From Myxococcales bacterium (lineage in GTDB: Bacteria > Myxococcota > Myxococcia > Myxococcales > Myxococcaceae), in NCBI GenBank assembly GCA_016191815.1, contig JACPVI010000010.1:1-64000 (forward strand): DNA of 64,000 nucleotides, written 5' to 3'. A program made the translations under genes and the position numbers. The notes under the pieces are model-generated. The model made no database searches. It was given only the letters and a program-made list of their open reading frames with translations, and was not told the origin of the DNA. Below, in pieces: positions 17,394 to 45,941 of the stretch (its first letter is position 1; each line of letters starts with the position of its first letter).

Positions 17394-17403
17394 GGCTTCT
17401 CCT

Positions 17404-19613: not shown

Positions 19614-19640
19614 GCCACTCCCAGCGTCGGGTAGTCCTGT

Positions 19641-19973
19641 GTGGGTCCCCCGAAGTTCAGCCAGATCGCCAAGGATCAGATCGGCGACCCGTACGTGTTC
19701 GGCGCGAGCGGGCCGGACAAGTTCGATTGCTCCGGGCTCATCTACCATGCGCTCAAGAAGGCGGGCATCGACGCGCCGCGGCTTTCCGCTCGGGGCTACC
19801 AGCAGCGGTACGGCTCCAAGCTGGACCGGAACGAGCTCAAGCCAGGCGATCTGATTTTCCTGTGGTACCCGAGCGATCGAGGCATCCCGCGCGGGCAGGC
19901 CTCTCACGTCGAGATCTACCTCGGAAATGGCAAGCGGACCGTTTCGGGATTTCCGCGACATCGCGGGGGCTCA
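19641..19973 (+). pseudogene. NlpC/P60 cysteine peptidase, 3' end not resolvable (probably disrupted)
   Basis: From GTG 19641 the frame encodes GDPYVFGASGPDKFDCSGLIYHAL with the catalytic Cys in DCSGL, then LKPGDLIFLW and the catalytic His in ASHVEIYLGNGKR: the core of a cell-wall endopeptidase of the NlpC/P60 family. After GNGKR the family pattern stops at about 19,945, and this frame then runs for 2 kb antisense to the caspase gene with no stop, which is not credible as protein. The other two frames stop at 20,005 and 20,061. So the gene has lost its end or carries a frameshift; the end coordinate given is the stop of the convergent gene. No signal peptide is present. Confidence 0.55.
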
Positions 19974-21818: not shown

Positions 21819-22012
21819 CCCGCCCTTTTGCCCATCATCTCCGCCGCACACAAGGCCATCGCCCACCCTTCCCCACACCGCCCGCAACCGGCCGGCTTGA
21901 CGCGGGTTTTTCCCTCGCGGGAGCCTTGCTTTCAGTTCGGCGCGGCGGCCGTGTCCATTGGGACGTAGGGCCCGCCGGGGGCCCGTTCCCCGAACCGACA
22001 CGAGGAGAAACC

Positions 22013-22996
22013 ATGAAGCGCTCGATGCTGATCGCCGCCGCAGTGCTGGTCGCCGCCTGCGGCAGGGAGCGCGCGGACGAGTTCCGCCGCGGCTTCCCGA
22101 AAGCCAACGAAGTGAATCTCGAGGTGCCCGCTCGCGCCGGCCAGGCGCTCTCGGGCGCCTCTCAGCGGCAGGACGCCCTCGAAGGCGACCGCGCCTCCTT
22201 CTACGTCTTCACCCGGGTGGTCACCGCCACCGTCAACTCCGGCACCGCCGCCATCCTTGGGCTGGTGAAGGCGATCACCGACAACCCGCCCACCTCCATC
22301 ACCGGCAACGTGGCCACCTGGGGGCCGCACACCGATCCCCTCTCGCCCAACACCTTCAAGTTCACGGTGATGAAGACCAAGGCCAACGACTACAGCTACA
22401 CGCTCGAGGCCAAGGGCAAGAACGATCCGAACACCGCCTACGTGGTCATCCTCTCCGGGACGCACGTGGTCGCCACCGACGCCAACGGGCAGCCGATGGA
22501 GAAGTTCGGCAGCGGCACCTTCCTCATCGACTGGAACGAGGCGCAGAAGCTCCCCGAGCACGACGCCAACGTCGGCTCCGCGGAGTTCGTCTATTCGCGG
22601 CCGGCGCCGCTCTCCCAGGTGGAGATCGACGTGGTCTTCTCCAAGGTGAAGGACCACGAGACCGGCCAGCTCGTCGACGCGCTCTACAAGTACGTCGCCA
22701 CCCCGGGCAGCGGCGGCTCCTTCGACTTCGGGATGGTGAAGAACCTCGACTCCGACCCCGCCAAGTCCGCGGTGGAGAGTGCCACCATTCACAGCCGCTG
22801 GCTGGAGAGCGGCGCCGGACGCTCCGACGTCCGGGCCAAGGGCGGCGACATCCCCGGGGTGGCCACGCTGAACGAGTGCTGGGACTCGGACTTCAACAGC
22901 CGCTACCTGGCCGCCTCCTTCGCCCCGAACGCCGGCTGGGGCAGCCAGAGCGCCTGCGCCTTCCCCAACGCCGACTATTCGAACCTTCCGCTCTAG
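22013..22996 (+). CDS. Lipoprotein of unknown family, first of two paralogues
   Basis: 327 residues; GAGGAGAAA lies just upstream of ATG 22013. Lipobox VAAC at residues 13-16. The mature protein is beta-rich and ends in a Cys pair within NECWDSDFNSRY and SQSACAFP. The middle (AAILGLVKAI...PPTS...WGPHTDPLSPNTFKFTVMK) aligns by eye with the lipoprotein at 25989, which ends in the same HECWDDAF type motif. No known domain. It heads the unit that continues with sigma/anti-sigma pair B and the second caspase, and is divergent from the first caspase. Confidence 0.7.
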   Translation: MKRSMLIAAAVLVAACGRERADEFRRGFPKANEVNLEVPARAGQALSGASQRQDALEGDRASFYVFTRVVTATVNSGTAAILGLVKAITDNPPTSITGNVATWGPHTDPLSPNTFKFTVMKTKANDYSYTLEAKGKNDPNTAYVVILSGTHVVATDANGQPMEKFGSGTFLIDWNEAQKLPEHDANVGSAEFVYSRPAPLSQVEIDVVFSKVKDHETGQLVDALYKYVATPGSGGSFDFGMVKNLDSDPAKSAVESATIHSRWLESGAGRSDVRAKGGDIPGVATLNECWDSDFNSRYLAASFAPNAGWGSQSACAFPNADYSNLPL

Positions 22997-23080
22997 CATG
23001 CTGGACTCGCGCCACAGCGCGTCGGACAGACGGGCCCACGGTCGGAGCCGGCCGTGGGCCTGGCCGTTGGAGGAGCCACG

Positions 23081-23608
23081 ATGACCGGGCCGGCGCTGGA
23101 GGTCATCCAGGGTGGCAAGCAGGACACCCGCGCGATGCTGCGGGAGCTGTACTCGAGGTACGGCGGCAGCGTGTACGGAAGGTGCCAGTACCTGCTCCGG
23201 GACCGCACCGCCGCCGAGGACGCGATGCAGGACGTGTTCGCCAAGGCGCTCACCCACTGGTCGGAGTTCCGCGCCGAGGCCTCCCCGCTGACGTGGCTCA
23301 TGAAGATCGCCACCCACCACTGCCTGAACCTGGTGCGCGCCGAGGGCGCCGGCTGGAAGGAGCGCTACGAGGCCCAGGAGCGCGCCCGCCCCGAGGGGCA
23401 CGGCGGGCCCCAAGTCTTGGAGACGCGCGAGTTGATCCGCAAGGTGCTCTCGCGCTTCGACTCGGAGACGCAAGCGGTGGTGTTGCACTACCACCTCGAC
23501 GAGATGACGCTGGAGGAGGTCGCCGCCCTGCTCGGCCGATCGATCCCGACCATCCGAAAGCGGCTGCAACAGTTCGCCCAGGCGAGCGGACAGGAGCTGA
23601 GGCCATGA
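23081..23608 (+). CDS. ECF RNA polymerase sigma factor (pair B)
   Basis: 175 residues from ATG 23081, after TTGGAGGAGCC. Region 2: LYSRYGGSVYGRCQYLLRDRTAAEDAMQDVFAKAL, with PLTWLMKIATHHCLNLVR completing it; region 4: MTLEEVAALLGRSIPTIRKRLQQF. Its stop overlaps the start of the anti-sigma gene (ATGA). Embedded between the lipoprotein and the caspase gene, it most likely controls this very island in response to an envelope signal; no matching promoter could be read. Confidence 0.88.
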   Translation: MTGPALEVIQGGKQDTRAMLRELYSRYGGSVYGRCQYLLRDRTAAEDAMQDVFAKALTHWSEFRAEASPLTWLMKIATHHCLNLVRAEGAGWKERYEAQERARPEGHGGPQVLETRELIRKVLSRFDSETQAVVLHYHLDEMTLEEVAALLGRSIPTIRKRLQQFAQASGQELRP

Positions 23609-24369
23609 ACGGACACGCGCACCTTGGAGAGCTCGGCCTTCGCAGGCTCTTCGCGGGCGAGCTGCCGCAGGAAGACGCCGACCAGGCCCGGTCCTGCACG
23701 CACTGCCGCTCGAGGCTCCGCGGCATCGAGGAGGAGCAGCGGAGGTTCGAGTCGGAGCTGCCGTTCGAGCGGTTCGCCGCCGGAGTGGAGCGGGCCGCGA
23801 GATCGCCACGGCCTGCCCCGAAGCCGCAGCGCAGGTGGCTCTACCCGTTCACCGCGATGGCCGCCTCTTGCCTGCTCGCGGTGGGTTCGCACGCGCTGAT
23901 CGATCGCCTGGGTCACAATGGGAATCGAATCAAAGGCAGCGGTGGCCCGGAGGTCGATCTCGTGGTCTCCGGAGCCAAGGGCGAGCCCCAGCGGCACGTC
24001 TCGGCGGCGGCGCCGGAAGCGCTCTCCAAGGGAGATCGGGTGCGGATCGGCTACCGGGCGGGAGATCTCCGGTACGTGGCAGCAGTCTCGGTGGATGAGC
24101 AGGGAGAGGTGACCGCGCTCTATCCGCAGGCGGGCCCCAGCCTGGAGGTGAGCAGTGCGGAGGGGATGCAGTATCTGCCACAGAGCATCGAGTTCACCGG
24201 CCACGGCGCCGAGCGGGTGATCGTCGTGCTCAGCCCGGAGCCATTGGAAGTCGAGGCCGTCACGCGCGCCGCCAAGGAGGCCTTCACCCGCGCCGGGCGG
24301 GTAGAAACCATGGACACCGTCGAGCTGCCTGGAACGGAGCAGTTTCACAGGGTGGTACTGAAGCCGTAG
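23605..24369 (+). CDS. Zinc-finger-type anti-sigma with DUF4384-like exported domain (pair B)
   Basis: 254 residues. Residues 1-50 include H6 and SCTHC, an HxnCxxC arrangement typical of zinc-binding anti-sigma domains. One membrane helix at about 78-97 (PFTAMAASCLLAVGSHALI). The exported part (VDLVVSGAKGEP...LSKGDRVRIGYRAGDLRYVAAVSVDEQGEVTALYPQAG...YLPQSIEF) shares its core pattern with the anti-sigma at 17404; DUF4384-like domains of this type are commonly associated with caspases. Overlaps sigma gene by four bases and is followed after 12 bases by the caspase gene. Likely the transmembrane sensor of the island. Confidence 0.75.
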   Translation: MNGHAHLGELGLRRLFAGELPQEDADQARSCTHCRSRLRGIEEEQRRFESELPFERFAAGVERAARSPRPAPKPQRRWLYPFTAMAASCLLAVGSHALIDRLGHNGNRIKGSGGPEVDLVVSGAKGEPQRHVSAAAPEALSKGDRVRIGYRAGDLRYVAAVSVDEQGEVTALYPQAGPSLEVSSAEGMQYLPQSIEFTGHGAERVIVVLSPEPLEVEAVTRAAKEAFTRAGRVETMDTVELPGTEQFHRVVLKP

Positions 24370-24381
24370 CTGCGAGGTCGG

Positions 24382-25977
24382 ATGCTCAGGGCATTGGGCA
24401 TGGTGGTGCTGTCGATGGCCGCGGCGCTCCCCGCGCCCGCGCAGGGTCCGCTGCGCCGACTCGCCGTCGTCGCCGGGAATGACCACGGCGGCGAAGGCAC
24501 CAGGCCTCTGCTCTACGCGAAGGATGACGCGAGGAAGATCCACGACGTCCTCGTGCGGCTGGGCGGCCTCGCCCCGGAGGACACCTCCCTGCTCCTCGAC
24601 GCCGGCTCCCAGGACCTGCTCACCGCCATCGGCGAGATGGAGCGCAAGGCCCGCGACGCCCGCTCCCGGGGCGAACGGACTGCCCTCTTCGTCTACTACT
24701 CCGGACACGCCAAGGACGGCGCCCTTCGCCTCGGCGATACCAAGCTTCCCTTCGAGTCCCTGAAGAATCGCCTCGCCCAAGCTCCCGCCGACATCCGCAT
24801 CGCGGTGTTCGACGCCTGCCGCTCCGGCACCATGACCCGCACCAAGGGCGCCCGCCGCGCCCCCGCCTTCGAGGTGGAGTCCGATGCCACCCGCGCCGCC
24901 CGCGGCCTCGTCATCCTCACCTCCAGCGCCGCCGACGAGGACTCGCAGGAGAGCGATCAGATCGGAGGGAGCTACTTCTCCCATCACCTGGCCAGCGGGC
25001 TGCTCGGCGACGCCGACCGGTCCGGCGACGGCCGGGTCAGCCTCTCCGAGGCCTATGCCTACGCCTACGACCGCACCGTGGCCGACACCGCCGAGAGCGC
25101 CGCCGGCGCCCAGCACCCCACCTTCAGCTTCGACCTCGCCGGCAACGGCGACGTGGTGCTCACCGATGTCGCCCAAAGGCGCGAGGGGGTGCTCTTCCCC
25201 GCCTCCGCCCCCGAGGGCCCTTACTTCCTCATCGACCAGAAGGGCTTCGTCGCCGCCGAAGTGGTCAAGGCCCAAGGCACCGAGCGGCGCATCGCCCTCG
25301 CGCCCGGGCTGTACAGAGTCAAACGGCGTCTGCAGAACCGGCTCCGCGTGGGGGAGGTCTTCGTCCGCGAAGGCCAGGTCGCCACCCTGAACGAGGCCGC
25401 GCTCCGCGACGCGCCCTTCTCCGACGATCCAGCAAAAGGCCCGGGCCGCGCCGCCCTCTACGCCCAGCACTACAGCGTCGGCGTCGCCGGGACCTACCAG
25501 TCGGTGTTCGACGCGCCCACCACCCGAGGAGGACATTTTCCCTCCGCTCCGCTCCTCGGCCTCGAGGTGCTCTCGCACAACTTCTTCGGCCGCGGCTTTG
25601 GCCTCGGCTTCGACCTGTTGCTCGGCGGCTCCGACGGCTCCCTCTCCACCGGCGCAATCGAGGACGTCCGGTACAAGTACGGGCAGGTCTCGCTCGGCGC
25701 GTCCATCGTCGCCGAGTGGCCGGAGGGCGCCATCGTCCCCTTCGTCGGCGCGCGCCTTGGCGCCAACCTCATGTCGCGGGAATTCCCCGGAACCGCGCTG
25801 CCCAAGCAGGGCTATTACACCCTCACCCCGGGAGCCATCGGCGGCCTGCGCCTCCGCCTCTCCCGAAAGTGGAGCCTCGCCGGCCGGGCACGCCTGCACT
25901 ACCTCCTCTACAACATCGACGAGACCAAGAACTTCGGCTACCTCGAGCTGGCCACGCTTTTGAGCTACGAGCTGTGA
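24382..25977 (+). CDS. Secreted caspase-family peptidase with C-terminal beta-barrel-like domain
   Basis: 531 residues. Signal peptide MLRALGMVVLSMAAALPAPAQ. Caspase-like domain at about residues 25-235 with H109 in VYYSGHAKDG and C146 in FDACRSGT, plus an EF-hand-like DRSGDGRVSLSEA loop near 215. A beta-rich linker follows, and from about residue 360 a region with alternating aromatic/hydrophobic strands (LGLEVLSHNFFGRGFGLGFD, GASIVAEW, LATLLSYEL at the C-terminus) looks like an outer-membrane barrel, including a terminal hydrophobic strand. Acts in the envelope. Activation by calcium or partner binding is inference. Followed 11 bases later by the second lipoprotein. Confidence 0.82.
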   Translation: MLRALGMVVLSMAAALPAPAQGPLRRLAVVAGNDHGGEGTRPLLYAKDDARKIHDVLVRLGGLAPEDTSLLLDAGSQDLLTAIGEMERKARDARSRGERTALFVYYSGHAKDGALRLGDTKLPFESLKNRLAQAPADIRIAVFDACRSGTMTRTKGARRAPAFEVESDATRAARGLVILTSSAADEDSQESDQIGGSYFSHHLASGLLGDADRSGDGRVSLSEAYAYAYDRTVADTAESAAGAQHPTFSFDLAGNGDVVLTDVAQRREGVLFPASAPEGPYFLIDQKGFVAAEVVKAQGTERRIALAPGLYRVKRRLQNRLRVGEVFVREGQVATLNEAALRDAPFSDDPAKGPGRAALYAQHYSVGVAGTYQSVFDAPTTRGGHFPSAPLLGLEVLSHNFFGRGFGLGFDLLLGGSDGSLSTGAIEDVRYKYGQVSLGASIVAEWPEGAIVPFVGARLGANLMSREFPGTALPKQGYYTLTPGAIGGLRLRLSRKWSLAGRARLHYLLYNIDETKNFGYLELATLLSYEL

Positions 25978-32513: not shown

Positions 32514-35500
32514 ATGTTCTTTCTCGCCTCGCTTCCCCTCGTGCTCTTGCAGGCGGTGTCGGTCAGCCCCACCTCGGCCCCGGCTTCGGGCCAGGCCGAA
32601 GCGGTGGTCAAGGTGGACCGGGCGGGAATGGTCCGCCTCCTGGCGAAGAGCCGCAGCGGAACCTCCTGCGAAGTGGTGGATCACCTTCGAGGCCCCTTCG
32701 CGCGCTCCGGCTCGGCCGGCGTCTCCAACTGCGAGCTGGACCTGCTCCTCGATGCGGGCACCTACAAGCTGCGCCTTTTGTCGAAGGCGAAGGCTCGCGG
32801 CAAGGTGGAGATCGGCGCCTTGGCCTTCACCGAGGCCAACCAACCCATCCCCCGCCTGGAGCCGCAGCGCAGCGCGCAGCGGGCCCTGCCCTCGGGCGAG
32901 CAGGCCTCGTACTGGATCCGCCTCGAGAAGCGCCAACCTGTAACGCTGCGTGTCTCCGGGCGAACCGCCGGAGCGGTCAGGCTGTGGCGGAACGGCGAGT
33001 GGCTGGAGACGGCGCCTTTCCGCGGCGCGGTCGTCTACCCCCAGCCGGGCCAAGGCATCCACGAGTGGTGGCTGGAAGCCCCCATCGACACAGGCGACTA
33101 CCTGCTCACGGTGTACGGGACCGACGCCCGGCCCTGGACGCGCGGGAAGGAGTCCGACGCCGTCTCCGTGGAGTACGGGTTCAGGCCTGCCCCGGTGGAG
33201 CGCTCAATAGACTTGGCGCTGCCCGAGTGGGGGATGGCGGCGATCTCCCTGCCCAAGCAGCCCGCGGTGGCCTTCGCCTCGCTGGAGGCGCCGGGCCCCG
33301 AGGCGACGCAGCTCTCGTTGCACCCGCTGAGCGAAGAGGGGGCCAGCGCGGTGGCCACCGCGGAGGGCGCCTGCCGGATCGAGCCCAAGGCGCTCGTCCC
33401 CGAGTGCGCGGCCCATGCCGGGATGGACGCCCGCCACGTGCTCCTGGTCCGCGGCGCTCCGGGCACCAGGGTCCACCTGGAATGGGCTGCGCTGGGCGGC
33501 CAGGGGCCCTGGCGCGACGGCTTCTATGGCTCCGGCCGGCAGCACCTCACCTTCCGCGCGGAGGAGTCCGGTGAGTACCTGGTTGGCCTCCACGACGTGC
33601 CTTTGGACGAGGACTCGCCGCCGCTCTCCTGCGAGCTGGCCCGGCTGGCGAAACTGGAGCGGCTGCCTTTGGGCCGGGACTTCCTGAAGGTCGGCCCCGA
33701 GCGCCCCATCGAGCGCGAGTTCAACTATCTGCAGGGCGCCACCATCTGGTTCGAGCTGGAGAAGGGCGGGCGCTACCGAATCCAGACTCAAGGCGGGCGA
33801 AAGAGCCGCTGCGAGCTTTTCCGGGTCGACGGCGCCGAGCGCAAGCGCCTCACCGAGACGGATCCGAAGTCGGAGAGCTGCGACCTCGCGTTGACCCTCT
33901 CTCCTGGGCCGTACGACCTCGCGCTGTACGGAGGCATCGAGGGCATCGAGAAGCTGATCATCCGCGAGGACTCGCAGCGCGCGCCCAGGCCCTCGCCGAC
34001 CAAGTCGTCCTGCCTCAACCAACGGGTGCGGCTGGAGGCCGGCGCCGACTACCAACTCAGCGTCAACACTCCCGGCAGGGCCAGCGCGCGGGGCCTGGTC
34101 GCGGCGAGGCTGCCGCTCGCCCTTGCCTCTCCGCTCCACCTCACGGTCGACCCGCGCGGGGAGGTGAAGCTCCCGCTCGCCCAGGGCCCGGTGGTGGTCC
34201 GCTCGTCGGGAGGACGCCCGTTCGCGTGCGCCGGCGGCGGGGCGTCCGTCGACGCCAAGGATGGCACCTGCCGGCTCGAAGGCACCGACTCCCTGGCTCT
34301 GGGCAACAGCGGCACGAACGCAGTCAGCCTCACCATCTTCCGGCCGAGGCCGGAGACGGCGCCGCCGCCCCTTGCGGCCTATCGCCCCACGCCCGCCCCG
34401 CTCGCCAGAGTGCCGCTCGACACGCCGACCTTCTTCGACTTCGACCGCGGCGAATCCCATTCGATGGTCTTCGACGTGGAGCGCCCTGGCCTCTACCACG
34501 TGACTACGCTGGGACTGCTCTCCACCTCCTGCCGGCTGCGGACGCCGGTGGAGCCGTCGCTCTCGGCAGACACCGGAGGGGGCCGCGGGCGCAACTGCCT
34601 GGTAGCCGGCTACCTCAAGCCCGGCCGCTACATGCTCACCGTCACCGCCCAGGGCCAGAGCAAGGGCCGCGCGGCGGCGCTGCTCAAGAGGCGCTCGCCC
34701 AAGGAGAGCCAGCCGGTAGCCGCCGATGGAGAAGCCTTCCTGCGAGTGGAAGCGGGGGACCTGATCCAGCAGCGGCTCACGGTGAAGTCGCCCGGGCGTT
34801 ACGCGCTCGCCACCAGCGGCCAGGGGGTGTCGCTCCAGTGCCGGCTCGACGACAAGGACGGCTGGCCGCTGCTGCGCGTGCCCACCCCCTGCACCCAGGA
34901 GCTGCGGCTCCGCGCGGGACAGCTTCTGTGGACGCAGCTCCCGCTCACGGTGGAGAGCATGCGCCACACCCAGCTCAGGAAGGTGCGGCGTCCGGCGCGG
35001 CTCACGGGAGCCAAGGCGCACCCGGTGCAGTTCCACACTTGGTACACCGCGGTGCTCGGGAAAGACGGCAAGGACGAGCTGACCTTCGAGTTGGAGGGCG
35101 AGCTGGAAGTGGCCATCGCCCTCACCTCCGGGATGCAGGGAAGGCTGTTCGCGCATGAGAAGGAAAAGCGCAGGCCGGTGGAGGTCATCCCTCCCCAGGA
35201 AGCGAGCGCGCCCCGGGACGACAGCGAGCCAGAGGAGAGCGAGGGAGGAGGCTACGAGGGCGAGGGCTACGAAGGCGAGGGTGAATCCTACGAGGGTGAA
35301 GAGACCTCCGGGGAGCCGCGCCCTTCCGGCTATCAGCCGCTGTTGCCCCAGGCGCCGCCGCCGGCGCCCGGGCACCGGGTGACCTTGCCGCCGGGCAAGT
35401 ACCTGTTGGTGACGGAGCACAGCCGCGGAGACGTGGCCATCGAGTACAGGCTCCACCTGGGAAGCGACACCTTGCTGCCCGGCATGACGAGGGAGTTGCC

Positions 35501-37754
35501 GGTTCCCGCCCGCCTCCCCGTGAAGATGCCGCGGGACGGGACGGTGCGCCTTCGCACCGAGGGCGAGACCGACGTGCGCTGCCGCTTGTTCGACGGGGAG
35601 CGGCTGGTGTTCGAGGGCAGCGACAACGGCGCGGACTGGAACTGCGTGCTCGCCGAGCCGCTGAGGAAGGGCCTCTACACCCTGGTCATCGAAGCCGAGA
35701 CGCAAGCCCCCGGCGCCACCCGCCTCGCCCTCACCCAGCCGAAGGCCGAGGAACTGGGGCCCCTCTCCGACGGCCAAAAGCTCAAGCTCGGCTCGGACGT
35801 GGCGGTGCTGGACGTGCCCCTTCCCGAGCAGGACGCGGTAGAGGACCTCACCCTCCGCTCGAAGTCGCCGTTCTCCTGCGCGCTGGAGAACGCCGGCGGC
35901 GAGGTGGTCTTCCGCCTCTCGCGTGTCCGGGACTGCTCGGCGCTCGTGCGCCCAGGCGGCGAGAAGCACCGGCTCAGGCTCTGGACCACCGACGGCGCGG
36001 CGGCGGTGACTGCGTCCTTGCTCTCGCGGCCCATCGGCGACTTTGCGGGCGCCATCCCGGCGGCGAAGGCCACGCGCGCTTCGGTGCCGCGCCCTGGCCG
36101 CTACCGGACCTCGCCGCAAGTCTTCTGCCTTGGCGCCGCCTCGCGAGGGGTGCTGCGCGAATGCGGCCCGGAGGTGTCCCTCGAAGCCGGCCCCTGGGTC
36201 TTCAGCGCGCGCGGGCCCGGCGCGGAGCCGAGGCTGCCGCTCGAGGAAGTCACCACCTCCCCGGAAGCGGAGGCGAGGCCGCTGCGGCTGTCCCTCTCCC
36301 GAGCGCCGTTCATCCAGGCGGCGGTGGCGAAAGAGCCGTCCATCCATCTTCTCTCGGCGACCGTCTCCCACGGGGAGCGGGTATCTCCTTCGTGCGCGAT
36401 CGACTCCTACGGAGACGGCAAGTCGCCCGGCGTGCGCGCCCGCGGGGAGACGGCTTGCCACGCCGCCAGCGGCGTCGCTCTCTCGGCCATCGAGCGGCTG
36501 TGGGTGCCCAGCGAGGAGCCGGTGGAGGCGAAGGTGGTGCGGCTCGCGGTGCCGGTGCCGCAAAACCCCGGCACGCTCTCTGTGGGCAGGCAGCGGCTGA
36601 GCTGGCGGGGCAGTGCCGCGCTCTTCCGATTGCCGCCGGCCAGCCGATCGCGCGTCGAGCTGACCCAGCCCAGGGAAAGCTGGGCGGTGCTGCTCGACGG
36701 AGCCGGCCGAGCGATGGACGTCTGTGCTCCCGAGCTCGAGATGTCCCGCTGCGTGCTCTCCGCGCAGGGAGGGCAGCTCTTCATCCACTCTCCGGGCGAG
36801 AGCACCGCCGACGCCACGGTGGTCCTGTTGGACGCGCCCGAGCGGGTGGTCTCCTTCACCGGCCTGCACGAGGAGGCACCCAGGCTGCCCGGCACGGTGA
36901 GGCTCCGGGTCCCCGCGGCAGAAGGCGAACGGTTCGCGCAGGTCGAGGGCGCCTCGCGCTGCGTGGTGGTCCTCGACGATGGAGTCCGCCTCTCCTCGTG
37001 CCGCGCCACCGTGCCCGCCGGCATCGGCGCCGAGCTGCTCATCGATTACGCCGCCCGTCCCTACCGGGCGGTGGTGCACGTCCCCGGGCGCGACAAGTGG
37101 GCCAGGCTGGGCGTGGAGCTGCCCGCCAAGTCCGGTCCTGCGCTCGGGCAGGCAGTCGCCATTCCGGCGTCGGGCGCGCTGGTGGACCGCGTCTTCGAGC
37201 TGCCCCAGGACGCGGTGGTGCGGATCCGCTCCGACTCCGGCGTGTGCGGGCTGTTCCGGGGGAACGATCTGCTCGCCGCCGACGGACTGGACGCAGGCTG
37301 CGAGCTGACCCGCCTGGTCTCCGCGGGGACCTACCGCTTCCTGGTGCGGCCCTTCGACAAGGTTCCCCTGACCGGAACCCTGAGCTGGACGGCGGAGCCG
37401 GTGAGCGTCCTCGCCGACGGGGTCGGCCCCGAGGAGTGGATCAGCCCCTCCGAGGTGCGGCTGTACCGGTTCGCCACCGCCTCCGCGGGGAAGATCGGCC
37501 TCGGCCTGCAAGTGCAAGCCGAGCGTCTGGACTGCCAGCTCTTCGACGACGGCCACCGGCTGCTCGGCGAGGGCTGCCAGCAGTACCTCTCGGTGGAGAA
37601 GGGGAGCTACCTGCTCGCCATCCGCGCCCCCGCGAGCCCGGGCGCCAGGCCGCTGCGCTACCGGCCGGTGCTCTTGGGACTGGCCGGCGCCAAGACCGGC
37701 GTCCCGGAGGAGTACCTGCGCGACTTCTTCAATCGGATCGGAGCCAACCCGTGA
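32514..37754 (+). CDS. Giant exported protein of repeated Cys-pair beta modules, unknown family
   Basis: 1,746 residues from ATG 32514 (GCGGAGATGAC). Short signal peptide (MFFLASLPLVLLQAVSV). Nearly the whole length is a divergent repeat: x-C-x-L, 14-23 residues, C-x-L, then L-x-x-G-x-Y-x-L-x-V. Clear pairs are C52/C73, C433/C456, C673/C695, C776/C793, C1023/C1044, C1122/C1141, C1578/C1596 and C1674/C1688; about seven weaker copies fill the gaps. The pattern resembles PPC-type beta-sandwiches with one disulfide each. Residues 913-930 are a GYEGE repeat. No enzyme motif. The stop overlaps the alpha-2-macroglobulin start (GTGA), so the two are translated together; a periplasmic scaffold, inhibitor or adhesin role is inference. 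Confidence 0.8.
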   Translation: MFFLASLPLVLLQAVSVSPTSAPASGQAEAVVKVDRAGMVRLLAKSRSGTSCEVVDHLRGPFARSGSAGVSNCELDLLLDAGTYKLRLLSKAKARGKVEIGALAFTEANQPIPRLEPQRSAQRALPSGEQASYWIRLEKRQPVTLRVSGRTAGAVRLWRNGEWLETAPFRGAVVYPQPGQGIHEWWLEAPIDTGDYLLTVYGTDARPWTRGKESDAVSVEYGFRPAPVERSIDLALPEWGMAAISLPKQPAVAFASLEAPGPEATQLSLHPLSEEGASAVATAEGACRIEPKALVPECAAHAGMDARHVLLVRGAPGTRVHLEWAALGGQGPWRDGFYGSGRQHLTFRAEESGEYLVGLHDVPLDEDSPPLSCELARLAKLERLPLGRDFLKVGPERPIEREFNYLQGATIWFELEKGGRYRIQTQGGRKSRCELFRVDGAERKRLTETDPKSESCDLALTLSPGPYDLALYGGIEGIEKLIIREDSQRAPRPSPTKSSCLNQRVRLEAGADYQLSVNTPGRASARGLVAARLPLALASPLHLTVDPRGEVKLPLAQGPVVVRSSGGRPFACAGGGASVDAKDGTCRLEGTDSLALGNSGTNAVSLTIFRPRPETAPPPLAAYRPTPAPLARVPLDTPTFFDFDRGESHSMVFDVERPGLYHVTTLGLLSTSCRLRTPVEPSLSADTGGGRGRNCLVAGYLKPGRYMLTVTAQGQSKGRAAALLKRRSPKESQPVAADGEAFLRVEAGDLIQQRLTVKSPGRYALATSGQGVSLQCRLDDKDGWPLLRVPTPCTQELRLRAGQLLWTQLPLTVESMRHTQLRKVRRPARLTGAKAHPVQFHTWYTAVLGKDGKDELTFELEGELEVAIALTSGMQGRLFAHEKEKRRPVEVIPPQEASAPRDDSEPEESEGGGYEGEGYEGEGESYEGEETSGEPRPSGYQPLLPQAPPPAPGHRVTLPPGKYLLVTEHSRGDVAIEYRLHLGSDTLLPGMTRELPVPARLPVKMPRDGTVRLRTEGETDVRCRLFDGERLVFEGSDNGADWNCVLAEPLRKGLYTLVIEAETQAPGATRLALTQPKAEELGPLSDGQKLKLGSDVAVLDVPLPEQDAVEDLTLRSKSPFSCALENAGGEVVFRLSRVRDCSALVRPGGEKHRLRLWTTDGAAAVTASLLSRPIGDFAGAIPAAKATRASVPRPGRYRTSPQVFCLGAASRGVLRECGPEVSLEAGPWVFSARGPGAEPRLPLEEVTTSPEAEARPLRLSLSRAPFIQAAVAKEPSIHLLSATVSHGERVSPSCAIDSYGDGKSPGVRARGETACHAASGVALSAIERLWVPSEEPVEAKVVRLAVPVPQNPGTLSVGRQRLSWRGSAALFRLPPASRSRVELTQPRESWAVLLDGAGRAMDVCAPELEMSRCVLSAQGGQLFIHSPGESTADATVVLLDAPERVVSFTGLHEEAPRLPGTVRLRVPAAEGERFAQVEGASRCVVVLDDGVRLSSCRATVPAGIGAELLIDYAARPYRAVVHVPGRDKWARLGVELPAKSGPALGQAVAIPASGALVDRVFELPQDAVVRIRSDSGVCGLFRGNDLLAADGLDAGCELTRLVSAGTYRFLVRPFDKVPLTGTLSWTAEPVSVLADGVGPEEWISPSEVRLYRFATASAGKIGLGLQVQAERLDCQLFDDGHRLLGEGCQQYLSVEKGSYLLAIRAPASPGARPLRYRPVLLGLAGAKTGVPEEYLRDFFNRIGANP
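35250..35303 (+). repeat. Tandem GYEGE coding repeat
   Basis: Three imperfect copies of a codon block for GYEGEGYEGEGESYEGEE inside the giant Cys-pair gene. The acidic, Tyr-containing run forms a probable flexible linker between beta modules and may vary in length between strains. Confidence 0.7.
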
Positions 37755-40700
37755 GCGCGACCCGGACGAAACCCTTATCCCTCTCTCGCATGCGGGGGCG
37801 GGCCAGGGCGAGGGTAGACCAGGCCCTCCTCGCCGCGGCGTGTCTGCTCGCCGCCGCCGCCCGCGCCCAGGAGTACGTCCCGGCCGACCGGGAGCAGCGG
37901 CCGGCGGGCGACTCGGTGCGCATCCTCCCCGAGCAGTTCCTCCGCGGCTTCGACCCGGTGACGGTCTACTTCCCCGACAACGTGGGGCCCGGCCACGCGC
38001 ACGCGGACGACGGGGCGAAATTCCTCGAGCTGAGCCCCGACTGGCCCGGCGCCTGGTTCTGGGCCGACCGGAAGACGCTCCAGTTCCGCCCGGCGGAGCC
38101 GTGGCCGGCGCTCTCCCGCTTCGCCTTCGAGGCCCGCGGCGCGCGCAAGGTGCTCACCACCATGATGTCCGCGCCCTCGTCGATGTGGCCGGCGCCGGGG
38201 AGCGAGGGGTTGAAGCCCTTCCGGGTGATCACCCTCACCTTCCCTCAGTCCCTCCCCATCGCCTCGCTGAGGCAGATGCTCAAGCTGGAGATCCGCGACC
38301 TGCCCGGCCTCGCCGACTCGCCGCGGAAGCTGGTCGATCACTACGCGCTCTCGCAGCTCCCGCGGGCCACCCACCGAGACGCCGCCACCTACGCGCTCAC
38401 CCTCGATGAGGACGTCCCCGAGGGGAAGCAGCTTTTGGTCCACGTCTCCTTGGCGCTCGGAAGCGAGGGCACCACGCTGTGGACCGGCCGCGCCTCGACC
38501 CGGACGCCGTTCCACCTCAAGGCCATCAGCTGCGGCAACGAGAGCTTCTCGCTGGTCGGGGGAGCTTCGAGTCCCAAGGACATGGCGCTCTCGTGCGGCA
38601 ACCGCGGGGACGCGCCGCAGCTCGTCTTCTCCGAGACGGTCAAGGACCTGACGCTCACCTCGCTCAAGCGGCTGGTGCGGCTGGAGCCCTCGGTGGCCGA
38701 CCTGCACTTCCAGACCTACGGGAGCCGGGTGGCCCTCAAGGGCCGCTTCGTCCCCGACACCCTCTACAAGCTCACCGTGGGCCCCTCGCCCATCTTGGAC
38801 GAGAGCGGTCGCACCCTTCGGGATCCCGGCCACGCCGAGATCTACTTCCACCTCGGCTGGAAGGCGGCCTTCCTTCGCTGGCAGCAGTCGACCGCGCTGC
38901 TCGAGTCGCGGGGCCCGCGCACGCTGCCTCTCGCCGGATATGGCGATCCGCGCGCCGACGTGCGCATCTACCGCGTGGACCCCCTCTACCTCGGGCTTTG
39001 GCCGTTCCCCGATGGGCCGGTGACGGTGAACGAGCAGGGCGATCCGCCGTTCCCGGGCGAGGAGCCGGCGGCGCGGCGACGGCCCGGCGAGCACGTCTCG
39101 GTGGAGGAGCTGGAGCAGCACATCAGGCTCCTCGGGTCTCCGCTGGTCTCGAAGGTGGTGGATCTCCCCCTCGCGGACAAGGGCGGCACCACCCACTTCG
39201 GGCTGGAGATGGGCGCGCTGATCGACCCGCTGGTGGGAAAGCACCGCGCCGGCACCTATCTGGTGGGCCTCCGCCGGCTCGCGGGGGCGCCGGAGCGCGC
39301 CTATATGCGGGTGCAGCTCACCAACCTGAGCCTCACCACCGTGGAGGACCGGGACCGTGCGGCCTTGGTGGTGCGCACCCTCGACACCGCCGAGCCGGTG
39401 CGCGGAGCCACCATCGTGCTGGACGGGACGAAGAAGCGGCCGCCCAACCTCGGAAACGCGCCCTGGAACCGCTTCATCTCCCTTAGGCTCACCACCGACG
39501 AGAGCGGCCGTGCCTCGCTGCTCCCGCTGGCCGAGTGGGAGACCATCGAGCGCATCTACGTGCAGAGCGGCGAGGACACCCTGGTCCTCGACCCGAGGCA
39601 GCCTCCTCCCCGCTTCGCCGACAACCACTGGTCTTCCTCCTCGAGCTGGCTCGGTTGGCTCACCCAGGCGATTCCTCCGCCGATCAACGACCGCCTGCTG
39701 GGCTTCGTCTTCGCCGAGCGGCCCATCTACCGTCCTGGGGAGACGGTCTTCCTCAAGGGCTTCGTCCGCCGGAAAGTGAGCGGCGAGCTGCGCGGCCTCC
39801 CCGCCCAGGAGCAGAAGCCCTACCGGCTGGTGGTCTCCAGCCCCGACGGACAGAGCTGGCCGGTCCCCATCGGCTGGACCGCGCTCCAGGGTTTCCAGGG
39901 CGAGCTCAAGGAGCCCAACCTCCCCACCGGGTCGCTCACCGCCTCGCTCTACGACGGCCAGCCGGGGAGCCTGGTCGCCCAGCGCAGCTTTCAGATCGAG
40001 GCCTACCGGATCCCCACCTTCGAGGTGCAGATCACCTCGCCCTCCACGGTGCGGCTGGACGGGCCGTTCAAGGCCAAGGCGATCGCGCGCTACTACGCCG
40101 GCGGGAACGTGGCGGGCCAGCCGATCGCGTGGGCGGTGACGCAGCGGCCGCACCACTACGTGCCCCGCGGCCGGGAGGATTACCTGTTCGCCTCGTCGAC
40201 CCAGTTCGCCCGTCCCAGCGCGGCCCGCCCGCCGGGCACCATCACCCAGCAGGCCGAGTTGGATGATCACGGCTCGGCGGAGCTCACCGTCAACCCGGCC
40301 TTGGACCTGGACGGCTCGGCGCGCATCTACCGCTTCGAGGCCACCGTCACCGGCCCTGACGACAACCAGGTCTCCGCGGCGCAAGAGGTGAAGGCGCTGC
40401 CGCCGTTCGTGATGGGCATGAAGCTCGTCCGCTACGCCGAGAAGGCGGCGGAGCTGCGGCCCGAGATCATCGCCGTCGGCGTGGACGACAAGCTCCTCAA
40501 GGGCCAGGAGATCCAGGTCCGGCTGTACCGGCGGGTCTGGCACTCCAACCTCCGCGAGACGCACTTCGCCACCGGGAAGGCCCAGTACGTCACCGAGCAG
40601 CAGGATGTGCGGCTGTTGGAGAAGACGGTCGTCACCGAGGACAAGCCGGTGGTGCCCTCGCTGCCGGTGCAGGAGGCGGGGGTGTACGTGGTGGAGCTGT

Positions 40701-43555
40701 TCGCGCGGGACAAGCTGGGCCGGGTGCAGACGATGTCCGCCGACCTCTACGTGGGAGGGCCGGCGCCGGTCTCCTGGCAGAAGTCGCGCGAGGGAGTCTT
40801 CGAGCTGTCGCTCGACAAGAAGAGCTACCAGCCCGGGGAAACCGCCCGCATCATCATCCAGAGCCCGTATCAGAGCGCGCGGGCGCTGGTGATCGTCGAG
40901 GAGCCGTCGGGGAACGCCTACCACTGGCGCGAGGTGAGCGGCGGCAAGGCGGTCTTCGAGCTGCGCGTCGGGTCGCAGCACGTGCCGAACCTGCCGGTGC
41001 ACGTGGCGCTGATGCGCGGCCGGATCGGCGAGGGGAAGGCGGACGACGGCCGGTACAAGCCGGCCACGGTGGCGGCCTCGGTGGATCTGGAGGTGGAGCC
41101 CGTCAAAAACCAGGTGGCGGTCGGCCTCGAGCACCCGGAGGTGGCGCGCCCTGGGAGCAAGGTGGAGGTGGTGGTGACGCTCAAGGACGAGGGCGGGAAG
41201 CCGCTGGGCGGGGAGGTGACGCTGTGGCTGGTGGACGAGGCGGTGCTCTCCCTGGCCAGGGAGGCGACGCTGGATCCGCTGAGCGCGATGGTGGTGCGCA
41301 ACCGGCGGCTCTCCTCGGTCCGCGACAGCCGCAACCTCATCCTGGGCCGGATCGCCGAGCAGGAGGAGGAGCCCGGCGGCGACGGCGAGGAGGAGCAGGA
41401 GGCCACCGGCCGCAAGGTGGTGCGGAAGAACTTCCAGACGGTGCCCTTCTACCAGGCCACCTTGGTGGTGCCGGCTTCGGGGCGCCTCGCGGTGCCGGTG
41501 CAACTCTCGGACGATCTCACCAACTTCAAGGTGCGCGCGGTGGCGGTCTCCGGGGTGCAGCGGTTCGGCCTCAAGCAGACGGTGCTGAGGGTGAGGTTGC
41601 CGGTGATCGTCCAGCCCAAGCTGCCCCGGTTCGTCCGGGCGGGCGACGAGTTCATGGCCGGCGGCATCGCCCGGCTGGTGGAGGGCGCGGAAGGGCCGGG
41701 CACGGTGGAGCTGAAAGTCTCCGGCCCAGCGGACTCCAAGCCGCTGTCTTCGCGCATCGCCCTCACCATGAACAAGCCCGAGAGCGTGCTCGCCAAGGTG
41801 GCGGTGAGGTCGACGGAGCCCGGCCAGCCCTCATCCCTCAAGGTGCGGATGGACGTGACCCGTCTCTCCGACAAGGCGGGCGACGCCTTCGAGGTGACGC
41901 TGCCGGTCTTGCCCGACCGGAGGGTGGAACAGCTCGCCTGGTTCGAGACGCTCTCCGATGGAAAGACGGCGCTCAGGCCGCTGCCGGAGAAGGCCCGGCC
42001 GGGCACCCTCTCCCAGTCACTCCACTTCACCAACCAGCCGGGAGTCCTGGAGCTGGCCTCGAGCCTCGAGTACCTCTCCGCCTACCCTCACGGCTGCCTG
42101 GAGCAGCGGATGAGCCAGGTCTTCCCCGAGCTGGCGCTGGCCGGGCTCCTCAAGAAACTGGAGCTGGACACCCGGCTGACGCCCCAACTGCAGTCGTCGG
42201 TGCGGAGGCTGCTCGATGACTTCGCAGCGCACCAATCGGACTCGGGCCTGTTGTCCTACTGGCCCGGCGGCCCCCCCGACGTGCAGGTGACCGCGCAGGC
42301 GGTGGAGCTGATGGCGCTGGCGCGGCGTGCGGGCTTCCCGGTCGACGAGAAGGTGAAGGCGCGCGCGACCGACTCGCTCCGGCGGGTGTTGCGGAGCGAC
42401 TACCCCGGCCTGCTCGCCGACTACCGCTACAACCAGCAGAGCTCCGCGCTGCGGGCGCTCTCGCGGCTGGGAGAGGTCGACGAGCACTACGCCATCGATC
42501 TCTTCCACCGCCGCGCCGAGATGGACCCCACCAGCGGGGCGGACCTCGCCGTCGCCATGTCCGCCCAGCCGGCGGTCTTCCGGAAGAACCTCGAGGCGCT
42601 GAAGGGAGAGCTGTGGGACTCGGTGATCATCAAGCTCGCCCGGGGGAAGCCCGTCTTCGAGGGAATCAAGCGCCAGCGGCGCTCCTGGGGCTATGGCTAC
42701 CTCGGCTCGGACCCGTCGACGGTGGCGGCGGTCTTCGAGAGCCTGCTGGTGCTCGACCCGGCCGACCAGCGGCACGACCTGATGCGCGACGCGCTCTTGA
42801 GTTACGGCAGCGCCGACCGTGGCTTCGGCTCGACCTTCGACAACCGCCGGGCAATGGCCGCGCTGGCGCTCTACCTCGAGCGGTCCCGGACGTCACAGAA
42901 GCGAGCCACCATCGCCCTCTCCCCCGCAGGCGGAGACCTGTACCTGGACGAGGGCAAGAAGGTGGTGAAGCGCTCCTTCCAGCACGATGGCCCGGTGACG
43001 GTGCGCCTCTCGGGCGGGCCGGTGGGCCTCCGCGGCTCCTACCGCTACCTGCCCGACGCCAAGGGAGACGAGGCCCAGGCGCTCAAGCAAGGCTTCATCG
43101 TCAGCCGCAACGCGACCGTCATCCGTGCTGGCGGCGGCGAGGACACTCACGTCGAGGACAAGGCAGGCAGCACCTTGCGGCTTCTCATCGGGGACATCCT
43201 CGAGCTGCACGCCAAGCTGGTGAGCGACGAGCGGCGGCAGCATGTGGCCCTGGTGGTGCCATTCGCGGCCGGGCTCGAGCCGATGAATCCGGCGCTGGAG
43301 ACTTCCGGTGCCGCCGCCAAGCCCTCGCACGCCGATTCGTTGAGCCCTGCCTACGTGCAGCGGCTCGACGAGGAGGTCCGCTACTACTTCACCGACCTGC
43401 CGCGCGGGACGCACTCCTTCCACTTCCGGGTGCGGGCAACCAGCGTGGGCTCGTTCGTGCACCCGGCTCCCTGGGTCGAGTTGATGTACCGGCAGGAGGT
43501 GCGCGGCCGCGGCGAAGGCATGCGCGTCGAGGTGGCGGCGACAAGTGAGAATTGA
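37751..43555 (+). CDS. Bacterial alpha-2-macroglobulin with thioester
   Basis: 1,934 residues from GTG 37751, which overlaps the giant gene's stop and follows GGAGCC; an in-frame ATG at 37790 is an alternative. Signal sequence near residues 20-40 (LLAAACLLAAAARAQ). Macroglobulin domains include FVFAERPIYRPGETVFLKGFVR and the SDDLTNFKVRAVAVS stretch; the reactive thioester CLEQ starts at C1449 in YPHGCLEQRMS. By family knowledge the protein traps proteases in the periplasm, with PBP1C, encoded next, repairing peptidoglycan. Longer than the E. coli homologue (1,653). Its end overlaps pbpC by 11 bases. Confidence 0.92.
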   Translation: MSATRTKPLSLSRMRGRARARVDQALLAAACLLAAAARAQEYVPADREQRPAGDSVRILPEQFLRGFDPVTVYFPDNVGPGHAHADDGAKFLELSPDWPGAWFWADRKTLQFRPAEPWPALSRFAFEARGARKVLTTMMSAPSSMWPAPGSEGLKPFRVITLTFPQSLPIASLRQMLKLEIRDLPGLADSPRKLVDHYALSQLPRATHRDAATYALTLDEDVPEGKQLLVHVSLALGSEGTTLWTGRASTRTPFHLKAISCGNESFSLVGGASSPKDMALSCGNRGDAPQLVFSETVKDLTLTSLKRLVRLEPSVADLHFQTYGSRVALKGRFVPDTLYKLTVGPSPILDESGRTLRDPGHAEIYFHLGWKAAFLRWQQSTALLESRGPRTLPLAGYGDPRADVRIYRVDPLYLGLWPFPDGPVTVNEQGDPPFPGEEPAARRRPGEHVSVEELEQHIRLLGSPLVSKVVDLPLADKGGTTHFGLEMGALIDPLVGKHRAGTYLVGLRRLAGAPERAYMRVQLTNLSLTTVEDRDRAALVVRTLDTAEPVRGATIVLDGTKKRPPNLGNAPWNRFISLRLTTDESGRASLLPLAEWETIERIYVQSGEDTLVLDPRQPPPRFADNHWSSSSSWLGWLTQAIPPPINDRLLGFVFAERPIYRPGETVFLKGFVRRKVSGELRGLPAQEQKPYRLVVSSPDGQSWPVPIGWTALQGFQGELKEPNLPTGSLTASLYDGQPGSLVAQRSFQIEAYRIPTFEVQITSPSTVRLDGPFKAKAIARYYAGGNVAGQPIAWAVTQRPHHYVPRGREDYLFASSTQFARPSAARPPGTITQQAELDDHGSAELTVNPALDLDGSARIYRFEATVTGPDDNQVSAAQEVKALPPFVMGMKLVRYAEKAAELRPEIIAVGVDDKLLKGQEIQVRLYRRVWHSNLRETHFATGKAQYVTEQQDVRLLEKTVVTEDKPVVPSLPVQEAGVYVVELFARDKLGRVQTMSADLYVGGPAPVSWQKSREGVFELSLDKKSYQPGETARIIIQSPYQSARALVIVEEPSGNAYHWREVSGGKAVFELRVGSQHVPNLPVHVALMRGRIGEGKADDGRYKPATVAASVDLEVEPVKNQVAVGLEHPEVARPGSKVEVVVTLKDEGGKPLGGEVTLWLVDEAVLSLAREATLDPLSAMVVRNRRLSSVRDSRNLILGRIAEQEEEPGGDGEEEQEATGRKVVRKNFQTVPFYQATLVVPASGRLAVPVQLSDDLTNFKVRAVAVSGVQRFGLKQTVLRVRLPVIVQPKLPRFVRAGDEFMAGGIARLVEGAEGPGTVELKVSGPADSKPLSSRIALTMNKPESVLAKVAVRSTEPGQPSSLKVRMDVTRLSDKAGDAFEVTLPVLPDRRVEQLAWFETLSDGKTALRPLPEKARPGTLSQSLHFTNQPGVLELASSLEYLSAYPHGCLEQRMSQVFPELALAGLLKKLELDTRLTPQLQSSVRRLLDDFAAHQSDSGLLSYWPGGPPDVQVTAQAVELMALARRAGFPVDEKVKARATDSLRRVLRSDYPGLLADYRYNQQSSALRALSRLGEVDEHYAIDLFHRRAEMDPTSGADLAVAMSAQPAVFRKNLEALKGELWDSVIIKLARGKPVFEGIKRQRRSWGYGYLGSDPSTVAAVFESLLVLDPADQRHDLMRDALLSYGSADRGFGSTFDNRRAMAALALYLERSRTSQKRATIALSPAGGDLYLDEGKKVVKRSFQHDGPVTVRLSGGPVGLRGSYRYLPDAKGDEAQALKQGFIVSRNATVIRAGGGEDTHVEDKAGSTLRLLIGDILELHAKLVSDERRQHVALVVPFAAGLEPMNPALETSGAAAKPSHADSLSPAYVQRLDEEVRYYFTDLPRGTHSFHFRVRATSVGSFVHPAPWVELMYRQEVRGRGEGMRVEVAATSEN

Positions 43556-45941
43556 CCGCGTCGCATCGAAGCATCGGCGCCGATCTCGACTGCGTTCACT
43601 CTTGGTCGCCGGAGTGCTCCTGTCGCTGGCGGCCGCGATCGCCTTCTGCACCTCGCTCGATGGCCGGCTCCTGGACTACCAGCCCTCCAAGTTGATCCTC
43701 GATCGACGGGGACACTACCTGGGCGAGGTGCCGGGAGAGGGAGAGCAGCTGGGGTACTGGCCGCCGCCGTACGTGTTGCCGCCGAAGATCGTGGTGGCCA
43801 CGCTGGAGACCGAGGACCGCGGCTTCTTTCAACACCCCGGAGTGAGCGTCCGCTCGGTGGGGAGGGCGGCGTGGCAGAACGCGCGCAACGGCCGGGTCAT
43901 CTCCGGAGCCTCCACCATCGCGATGCAGGTGGCCCGGCTCCAGCGAGGCCGCGGACCGCGGACGGCCTTGCGCAAGGCAACCGAGGCAGCAGGCGCGCTG
44001 CTCCTGGTGCACCGCCACGGGCACGAGCGGGTGCTCAGGCAGTACCTCACGGTCGCGCCGTACGGAAACCGCGCCCGCGGGGTGGTCCGGGCCGCCAGGC
44101 TGTACTTCGACAAGCCGGTGGAGGATCTCTCCTGGCTGCAGGCCGCCTTCCTCGCCGGGCTCCCTCAGCAGCCGGGGAAGATGAATCCGTACTCCGAGGA
44201 CGGGCTTCGGCGCGGGCTCGCCCGGGCGCGGCGGATCTTGCGGGCGCTGCACGCGCGCGGGCACCTGAGCGGCGACGAGCTGCGAGTGGCGCTCTCGAGT
44301 GAGCTGGGACTGGTCCCGCTGCCGCACCGGCGCCCGGAGGCGATGCACGCGGTCTTGCACTGGTCCGAGCGCGCGCGCGGCCGGAAGGAGGCCACCCTCA
44401 CCGCGACCTTGGACCTGGGCGTCCAGCGCCAGGTCGCACGCATCCTCGGGAGCAACCTCGCCGCGCTCAGGCCCCTTGGCGCGGGCACCAGCGCCGCCCT
44501 GGTGGTGGACACCTCGAGCGGCGATGTCCTCGCCTACCTGGGCTCGCCGGACTTTTTCTCCGAGGAGGACCGCGGGGCGATCGACTACCTCCAGGTGAAG
44601 CGCTCGCCCGGCTCGGCGCTGAAGCCCTTCATCTACGCGCTGGCGATGGAGCGCGGCAGGTTGACCGCCGCCACCGAGCTGCCCGACACCAGGCTCGAGG
44701 TGCAGTCCGACGATGGCCGCGCCTACCTGCCGGAGAACATCAGCCACAATTACCTCGGGCCGATGCTGGCGCGGCAGGCCTTGGCCAACTCGCGGAACAT
44801 CCCCGCGATGCGGGTGCTCTCCTCGGTGGGGGTGGAGCCGGTGCTGCAGCTACTGGAGCGCGGAGGAGTCTCGGGCGTCTCCTACCAGCCAGACCGCTAC
44901 GGCCTCGGGCTGGCCATCGGAAATCTAGAGGTGACTGTGGAGGAGGCGGCGGCGCTGTACGGCGCGCTCGCCAGCGGAGGCGAGCTGGTCCCCTTCCGGC
45001 GGTTTTCGGACGAGGCGCCCGCGCCTCGGCGCCGGCTCATCTCGAGAGAGGCGGCGCAGATGGTGACGCACATCCTCGCCGACCGGGAAGCGCGCCGGCC
45101 GATGTTCGCCGCCGGAGGCCCGCTGGACTTCGACTACGCGGTGGCGGCGAAGACCGGAACCAGTCAAGGCCACCGCGACGCCTGGGCCATCGGCACCAGC
45201 GACCGGCTGCTGGTGGCGGTCTGGGTGGGAAACCACGACCGGCGACGGATGAACCACGTCACCGGCGCCGGAGCCGCCGCGACCGCGATGCACCGGATCA
45301 TGGACGCGGTGATGCCGCACCGGGAGCCGTACCGTCCGATCGCCTCGGCCTTTCCCTTGCCCGAGCGGTACGCGGCGCGGCAAGTCTGCCCGCTCTCGGG
45401 GAAGCTGGCTGGCCCAAACTGCCCCGAGCGGCGAGAGGAGGCGTTCGCGCCCGGCCTCGAGCCCACCTACGAGTGCTCCTACCACGTGACGATGGCAGTG
45501 GATGCGCGAAACGGCCTCCGCGCCGGCCCGCGCTGCCCGGAGGACTACGTGGTGTACCGCTCGATGCTGTCGCTGCCGGAGGAGTACGACGATTGGGCGA
45601 AGAGCCAGCGGCTCGAGCTGGCTCCGCGGCGGCAGAGCCCTCTTTGCCCGAGCGCACCGCCTGACGAATCGCCCTCGGTGGCCATCGCCGAGCCGAAGGA
45701 CCGCGCCCGTTTCCTCTTCGACCCTAACACCCCCGCAGAGGTCTCCACCTTGCGGCTATCGGCGAAGGTGATTCCGCCCACCGAGCGGGTGGTCTGGCTG
45801 GTGGACGGCGCCCCGGTGGCACGGGTGGGCCATCCGCACGAGCTTCGCTGGCCACTCGAAAAGGGCACTCACGTCATCCAGGCGATGCTGGACGGGCGCC
45901 CGTTCGGCAGCCGCCCGGTGACCGTCGTGGTCGACGACTGA
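43545..45941 (+). CDS. pbpC: Penicillin-binding protein 1C
   Basis: 798 residues from GTG 43545, inside the end of the alpha-2-macroglobulin gene. One N-terminal membrane anchor (residues about 18-36). Glycosyltransferase (GT51) domain with ETEDRGFFQHPG, catalytic Glu at about 90; transpeptidase domain with S357-P-x-x-style nucleophile motif S357-A-L-K360, SRN, and K536-T-G. The last 100 residues are the BiPBP_C-type beta domain of PBP1C. Builds or repairs peptidoglycan. Third gene of the coupled unit beginning at 32514. Confidence 0.93.
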   Translation: MRIDRVASKHRRRSRLRSLLVAGVLLSLAAAIAFCTSLDGRLLDYQPSKLILDRRGHYLGEVPGEGEQLGYWPPPYVLPPKIVVATLETEDRGFFQHPGVSVRSVGRAAWQNARNGRVISGASTIAMQVARLQRGRGPRTALRKATEAAGALLLVHRHGHERVLRQYLTVAPYGNRARGVVRAARLYFDKPVEDLSWLQAAFLAGLPQQPGKMNPYSEDGLRRGLARARRILRALHARGHLSGDELRVALSSELGLVPLPHRRPEAMHAVLHWSERARGRKEATLTATLDLGVQRQVARILGSNLAALRPLGAGTSAALVVDTSSGDVLAYLGSPDFFSEEDRGAIDYLQVKRSPGSALKPFIYALAMERGRLTAATELPDTRLEVQSDDGRAYLPENISHNYLGPMLARQALANSRNIPAMRVLSSVGVEPVLQLLERGGVSGVSYQPDRYGLGLAIGNLEVTVEEAAALYGALASGGELVPFRRFSDEAPAPRRRLISREAAQMVTHILADREARRPMFAAGGPLDFDYAVAAKTGTSQGHRDAWAIGTSDRLLVAVWVGNHDRRRMNHVTGAGAAATAMHRIMDAVMPHREPYRPIASAFPLPERYAARQVCPLSGKLAGPNCPERREEAFAPGLEPTYECSYHVTMAVDARNGLRAGPRCPEDYVVYRSMLSLPEEYDDWAKSQRLELAPRRQSPLCPSAPPDESPSVAIAEPKDRARFLFDPNTPAEVSTLRLSAKVIPPTERVVWLVDGAPVARVGHPHELRWPLEKGTHVIQAMLDGRPFGSRPVTVVVDD

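Follow-up and report, generated by a model that had tools for sequence, protein, structure and literature searches.

We analysed a window of 64,000 nucleotides from a Myxococcales bacterium (contig JACPVI010000010.1, forward strand), in which three overlapping genes form an operon on the plus strand. The first gene (32514..37754) starts with ATG, carries a ribosome-binding-like GGAG site 5 nt upstream of this start, and encodes a protein of 1746 amino acids, the giant protein, which is present as a single copy in its genome. It is followed by a gene for an alpha-2-macroglobulin (A2M; 37751..43555) of a subfamily that we refer to as the trio subfamily. The GTG start of this gene, with GGAG 7 nt before it, overlaps the TGA of the giant gene, so that the junction reads GTGA (37751-37754). 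Both the 1,746-residue open reading frame and the GTGA coupling had been proposed in an earlier note on this DNA and were confirmed. By Pfam, the A2M comprises MG2, bait-region (PF07703), A2M and bMG10 domains, and its thioester motif GCLEQ (residues 1448-1452) is encoded at 42092..42106. The third gene (43545..45941), which shares its first 11 nt with the end of the A2M gene, encodes penicillin-binding protein 1C (PbpC, PBP1C) with transglycosylase, transpeptidase and BiPBP_C domains; the match to TIGR02073 reached 491 bits, just under the cut-off of 494. Elsewhere in the window, a gene that matches DUF4384 weakly (21958-24369) lies just upstream of one encoding a caspase-like Peptidase_C14 protein (24382-25977; E 8e-12), and both are unrelated to the cassette.

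A2M/PbpC pairs are thought to act in envelope defence, in that A2M inhibits proteases entering the periplasm while PBP1C carries out repair (Budd et al. 2004, as cited in PMC4498604). The YfhM (ECAM)/PbpC type I cassette of Escherichia coli resembles the trio in having an A2M with a CxEQ thioester (here GCLEQ), the EXMY motif and PBP1C directly after it (PMC4498604). In contrast, the cassette described here begins with the gene of a 1746-aa partner, its A2M belongs to a separate subfamily, and the thioester is lost in some members. The second known arrangement is the mag operon (MagA-MagF) of Pseudomonas aeruginosa with a type II A2M, which likewise encodes partners of the A2M and to which the thioester-less trio forms (Rhizobium, locus L047) are similar; one of these partners, MagB, is needed for membrane location and stability of the thioester-less A2M MagD (PMC5764988). 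However, the window A2M has GCLEQ, and whereas the five Mag partners are small (26-60 kDa), the operon in the window consists of three genes including pbpC and its giant protein has about 185 kDa and no Pfam match above the cut-off; the Mag proteins are set apart here by description, not by direct comparison. No paper on the giant protein was found in the literature searched, which left most subscription journals outside, and this absence is no proof that the protein is undescribed.

Homologues of the giant protein were found in 47 of 195 Myxococcota genomes and, in addition, in Rhizobium, Acetobacteraceae, Acidobacteria and Poribacteria, four phyla in all. Profile searches detected the A2M subfamily in the identical 47 Myxococcota genomes with zero exceptions (Fisher P 3e-46, a value not corrected for shared ancestry). 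Four weak single-module matches (G162, G168-G170; E 1e-7 to 6e-4) were classed as PPC-domain matches and are outside the 47; a match in L069 (E 5e-6, 189 residues) was likewise treated as a PPC-domain match and not as a giant homologue. Among 39 genomes of the family, an independent protein search found the giant protein in 17, and precisely these 17 also encode a high-scoring A2M; A2M scores drop from 902 bits in the trio type to 310 bits in the remaining A2Ms. Further giant loci, from a separate collection, were located by an alignment-based scan, as peptide patterns drawn from a single sequence are not conserved. The earlier note had suggested looking for the giant gene next to A2M in other Myxococcota, and there it was: in 41 of the 47 genomes that have both, the two genes are adjacent on the same strand with the giant gene upstream, and the remaining 6 have them on separate contigs.

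The order giant, A2M, PbpC was conserved at all relative loci whose sequence extends far enough downstream, except in two Poribacteria; the acidobacterial contig stops after A2M. The same order occurs in Acetobacteraceae and on Rhizobium plasmids, where the flanking genes differ between plasmids, and comparison of the relative loci revealed no further gene of the window that is conserved beside the cassette. On a conjugative plasmid of Rhizobium sp. C104 (L007, 11416-25394) the cassette is decaying, with the giant gene split into two overlapping frames, A2M into three and PbpC into two, while near relatives are intact. In the two Poribacteria, the giant gene, one A2M gene (of the trio subfamily and the only A2M of the genome) and a 40%-identical PbpC lie at three separate loci, a case that comprises two related genomes and in which PbpC is a protein common in bacteria. 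There, the giant gene adjoins lpxB and lpxK of lipid A synthesis (L062 and L054), and a DUF3108-like protein is encoded just upstream of it (by Pfam in L062, with a like gene order in L054). Unlinked homologues, which the earlier note had named as evidence against its proposal, thus do exist; yet since the A2M of the trio subfamily is kept elsewhere in the same genome, they support the partnership.

Within myxobacteria (15 loci), the identity matrices of the giant protein and A2M agreed closely (rho 0.96), as neighbouring genes may do by common descent. The giant protein diverges faster than its partners (51% identity versus 66% and 61%), and it could be an outward-facing receptor or adhesin. 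We considered whether it might be an adhesin of the cell surface, or a protein of the matrix, that acts independently of A2M and PbpC, with only its gene accompanying theirs. Its rapid divergence would suit such a role, as would the tandem PPC/CBD/CUB-like modules described below, which are common in extracellular binding proteins. However, independent adhesins would be expected to come and go separately, whereas the giant protein occurs strictly one-to-one with a single A2M subfamily over 195 genomes and both are retained though unlinked in Poribacteria; we therefore regard this explanation as quite improbable. The giant protein and this A2M never occur without each other in the 195 genomes, their genes keep the same order, and both persist at separate loci in Poribacteria; these observations support the conclusion that the giant protein is a dedicated partner of A2M, in accordance with the third-partner role that the earlier note had assigned to it. 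Co-inheritance in one operon is no proof of contact, and binding between the two proteins is put forward here as a proposal.

The A2M of the trio is distinct from other macroglobulins of Myxococcota, which scored at most 555 bits and could be aligned only from about residue 510 onwards. Across phyla, residues 1-640 of the trio A2M are broadly as conserved as the MG/bait core, while conservation is among the lowest round the thioester (1391-1690). The thioester site itself reads GCLEQ in most myxobacteria and GCTEQ or HCTEQ in Poribacteria, Acidobacteria and Acetobacteraceae. In Rhizobium (GSTEQ) and at the myxobacterial locus L047 (ASLEQ), the thioester cysteine is replaced while the giant protein is kept, indicating that the partnership can do without the thioester. 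The earlier note had the giant protein work with "the thioester protein", which is not supported in so far as it implies that the thioester matters. L047 belongs to a Cystobacterineae MAG with a genome of 2.7 Mb (A2M at 15196-21012) in which the giant protein retains its conserved cysteines; this loss of the thioester cysteine is independent of the one in Rhizobium and parallels it. The giant protein and A2M have thus stayed together where their genes are unlinked and where the thioester is gone. In the simplest reading, the conserved modules of the giant protein would dock to the distinctive N-terminal part of the trio A2M, with covalent trapping being optional.

The giant protein of the window begins with a short hydrophobic stretch (residues 1-23; 32514..32582, +) which, compared with homologues, is presumed to be an export signal. 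In myxobacteria this stretch lacks a basic n-region and is not a textbook signal peptide, while the alphaproteobacterial and poribacterial homologues have proper signal peptides. Based mainly on the hydrophobic N-terminus, the disulfide-like cysteine set and the signal peptides of these homologues, we infer that the protein is exported. It contains exactly 30 cysteines, which form 14 short-range pairs with a spacing of 9-24 residues and leave over Cys373 and Cys500, both conserved. Among 22 myxobacterial homologues with identities down to about 32%, all 30 cysteines were at least 95% conserved, compared to 18.6% of all positions, and nearly all of these putative disulfide pairs sit on successive beta strands of the AlphaFold2 models. 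Outside Myxococcota, just 2 of the 30 aligned with a cysteine in the acidobacterial homologue, and none did in those from alphaproteobacteria or Poribacteria. The cysteine set is hence a myxobacterial trait rather than a defining trait of the giant family; the Cys-pair modules of the earlier note stand for myxobacteria, but its expectation that the pairs be conserved failed beyond this phylum.

Pfam searches of the window protein revealed no known domain or enzyme family above the cut-off, in line with the reported lack of an enzyme motif, and a PDB sequence search with both halves found no solved relative. Neither the LprI domain (PF07007) nor the PPC domain (PF04151) was found by Pfam profile in the window protein; however, the PF04151 profile matched 6 of 35 giant homologues (best E 1.2e-6). 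BiPBP_C matched weakly at residues 134-180 (E 6e-4), which would have indicated a PbpC-like domain, but the match is present in only 1 of 35 homologues and was dropped.

The structure of the giant protein was predicted in two overlapping AlphaFold2 models covering residues 24-985 and 830-1746 (mean pLDDT 85.6 and 85.8, pTM 0.74 and 0.64). Both models show a tandem all-beta chain with two or three short helices at most, so that the structure check proposed in the earlier note gave the tandem modules it had anticipated (overall mean pLDDT 86). Module borders were drawn by eye from the models and the cysteine pattern, and the resulting count of 15-18 modules is approximate. Module profiles were segments cut from a 37-sequence alignment of the giant protein, and their comparison by HHalign yielded eight mutually related modules, matching the eight clear modules noted before, though one of them, M2, has no cysteine. 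The best pair, M8-M11, reached a probability of 97% (E 4e-11), while a reversed-sequence control of 90 pairs reached at most 7.6%. All eight are encoded on the plus strand. M1 (residues 24-114, Cys52-Cys73; 32583..32855), of the PPC-like group, is among the modules best conserved across phyla; M2 (residues 114-222; 32853..33179) carries a conserved RLWRNG and is related to M5 and M8. M5 (residues 396-492, Cys433-Cys456; 33699..33989) and M9 (residues 728-832, Cys776-Cys793; 34695..35009) also belong to the PPC-like group. M8 (residues 626-730, Cys673-Cys695; 34389..34703) is the partner in the strongest internal match of M11 (residues 985-1082, Cys1023-Cys1044; 35466..35759), and M17 (residues 1544-1636, Cys1578-Cys1596; 37143..37421) is related to M1 and M11. 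The eighth is M18 (residues 1634-1728, Cys1674-Cys1688; 37413..37697). Across phyla, conservation was highest in M1-M2, M8-M11 and M18 and lowest in M3-M4, M7 and M12-M16.

The folds of predicted single modules were compared by Foldseek and VIA-align 2. The best match of the M8 model was the collagen-binding domain of ColG (1nqj; Z 13.6, 1.9 A over 92 residues), while the M18 model matched that of ColH (Z 12.1, 1.8 A over 93 residues) and a module model matched the PPC domain 5sv5 of a B. anthracis collagenase (Z 12.8). GOLD domains matched single modules with Z of about 11, and the tandem modules matched CUB arrays, e.g. that of cubilin. A kinship of the full-length protein to C3, C5 and A2ML1 was not accepted (Foldseek probability 0.1-0.7, TM <0.1). 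In contrast to the three collagenases, the giant protein strings many such modules together and carries no protease. As far as the models go, a PPC/CBD-type match fits a binding module, but a common fold says nothing of function.

The same comparison yielded alignments with PliG, the periplasmic inhibitor of g-type lysozyme, a beta-sandwich that could be aligned with the predicted modules over about 93 residues (Z 9.3-11.0; Z 11.0 and 2.5 A over 93 residues for M8, Z 9.8 over about 93 residues for M18). Further, the alphaproteobacterial giants (L002-L006 and L055-L068 from Rhizobium, L061 from Acetobacteraceae) have an N-terminal LprI domain (PF07007) after the signal peptide, which is absent from the myxobacterial and poribacterial forms. 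The name LprI suggests lysozyme inhibition. Those plasmid copies that are annotated with a later TTG start likewise have stop-to-stop frames that reach far enough upstream to include this domain. An array of hydrolase inhibitors could thus be envisaged, in which PliG-like or PPC-like modules, aided by LprI in alphaproteobacteria, bind hydrolases of peptidoglycan, lysozyme-like or otherwise, and leave the trapping of proteases to A2M and wall repair to PbpC. Such an array would be in line with the protection that MagD confers against peptidoglycan-targeting T6SS effectors, including the lysozyme-like VgrG3 (PMC12663445). However, PliG is a single small domain that matched less well than the collagen-binding and PPC domains, the fold they share shows no function, and the window protein has neither an LprI domain nor, by Pfam search, a sequence relation to PliG. 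Moreover, the LprI domain of Salmonella ScwA gave no lysozyme resistance (PMC7933661), and for this reason we hold the inhibitor array to be unlikely.

The sole region of the models with a pLDDT below 50 is an acidic, E/G/Y-rich insert within M10 (residues 898-949; 35205..35360, +), which is presumed to be flexible. The giants of Rhizobium carry an acidic D/S/Q-rich stretch in the module neighbouring the one that bears the insert in the window protein. Being the one disordered stretch of the chain, this acidic insert of roughly 50 residues may be taken as a decoy or bait, which proteases would attack and which would thus recruit or activate A2M, and the Rhizobium stretch could be read in the same way. 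However, the insert position differs between the two lineages and A2M has a bait-region domain of its own (PF07703), which makes a decoy very improbable. The earlier note had proposed a scaffold, bait or receptor; scaffold and receptor fit a chain of beta modules without a recognised enzyme domain, but bait gained no positive support.

Taken together, we consider it somewhat probable that the giant protein is the dedicated third component and the scaffold of an A2M/PbpC envelope defence complex. Once exported, the protein would be an elongated string of beta-sandwich modules, some 15-18 in number and most of them of the PPC/collagen-binding-domain type. In myxobacteria, about 15 disulfides would lock these modules. 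The A2M/PbpC complex would be built on this protein. The modules conserved phylum-wide (M1-M2, M8-M11, M18) may dock the trio A2M and perhaps PbpC, while the variable modules (M3-M7, M12-M16) may contact peptidoglycan or envelope, or incoming hydrolases; A2M would then trap proteases and PbpC would repair the wall. The giant protein would play the part of MagB at a larger scale. The defence role as such is proposed by analogy with the A2M/PbpC and Mag systems already described. A bolder and rather doubtful extension is a second, hitherto undescribed kind of bacterial macroglobulin system, in which a giant PPC-module protein would be the obligate hub of the A2M/PbpC complex and capture injected or secreted hydrolases of competitors (muramidases, amidases, proteases), with the thioester as an optional extra and covalent trapping not at the core.

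Why bacteria keep macroglobulins, and why they keep them beside PBP1C, is a long-standing open question. Thioester-less bacterial macroglobulins have no settled function, and the action of MagD against T6SS effectors is a recent experimental lead. The trio adds to this question a dedicated partner which, in every Myxococcota genome searched, is either inherited together with the A2M or absent along with it, which is kept when the genes are scattered, and which has outlived the thioester in two lineages. With the trio, the question can be addressed by experiment in Archangium, Hyalangium and Rhizobium strains that grow in culture; in Rhizobium the cassette is plasmid-borne. Since it is inherited with one A2M subfamily and its PbpC across four bacterial phyla, the giant protein is probably the third part of an envelope defence system.
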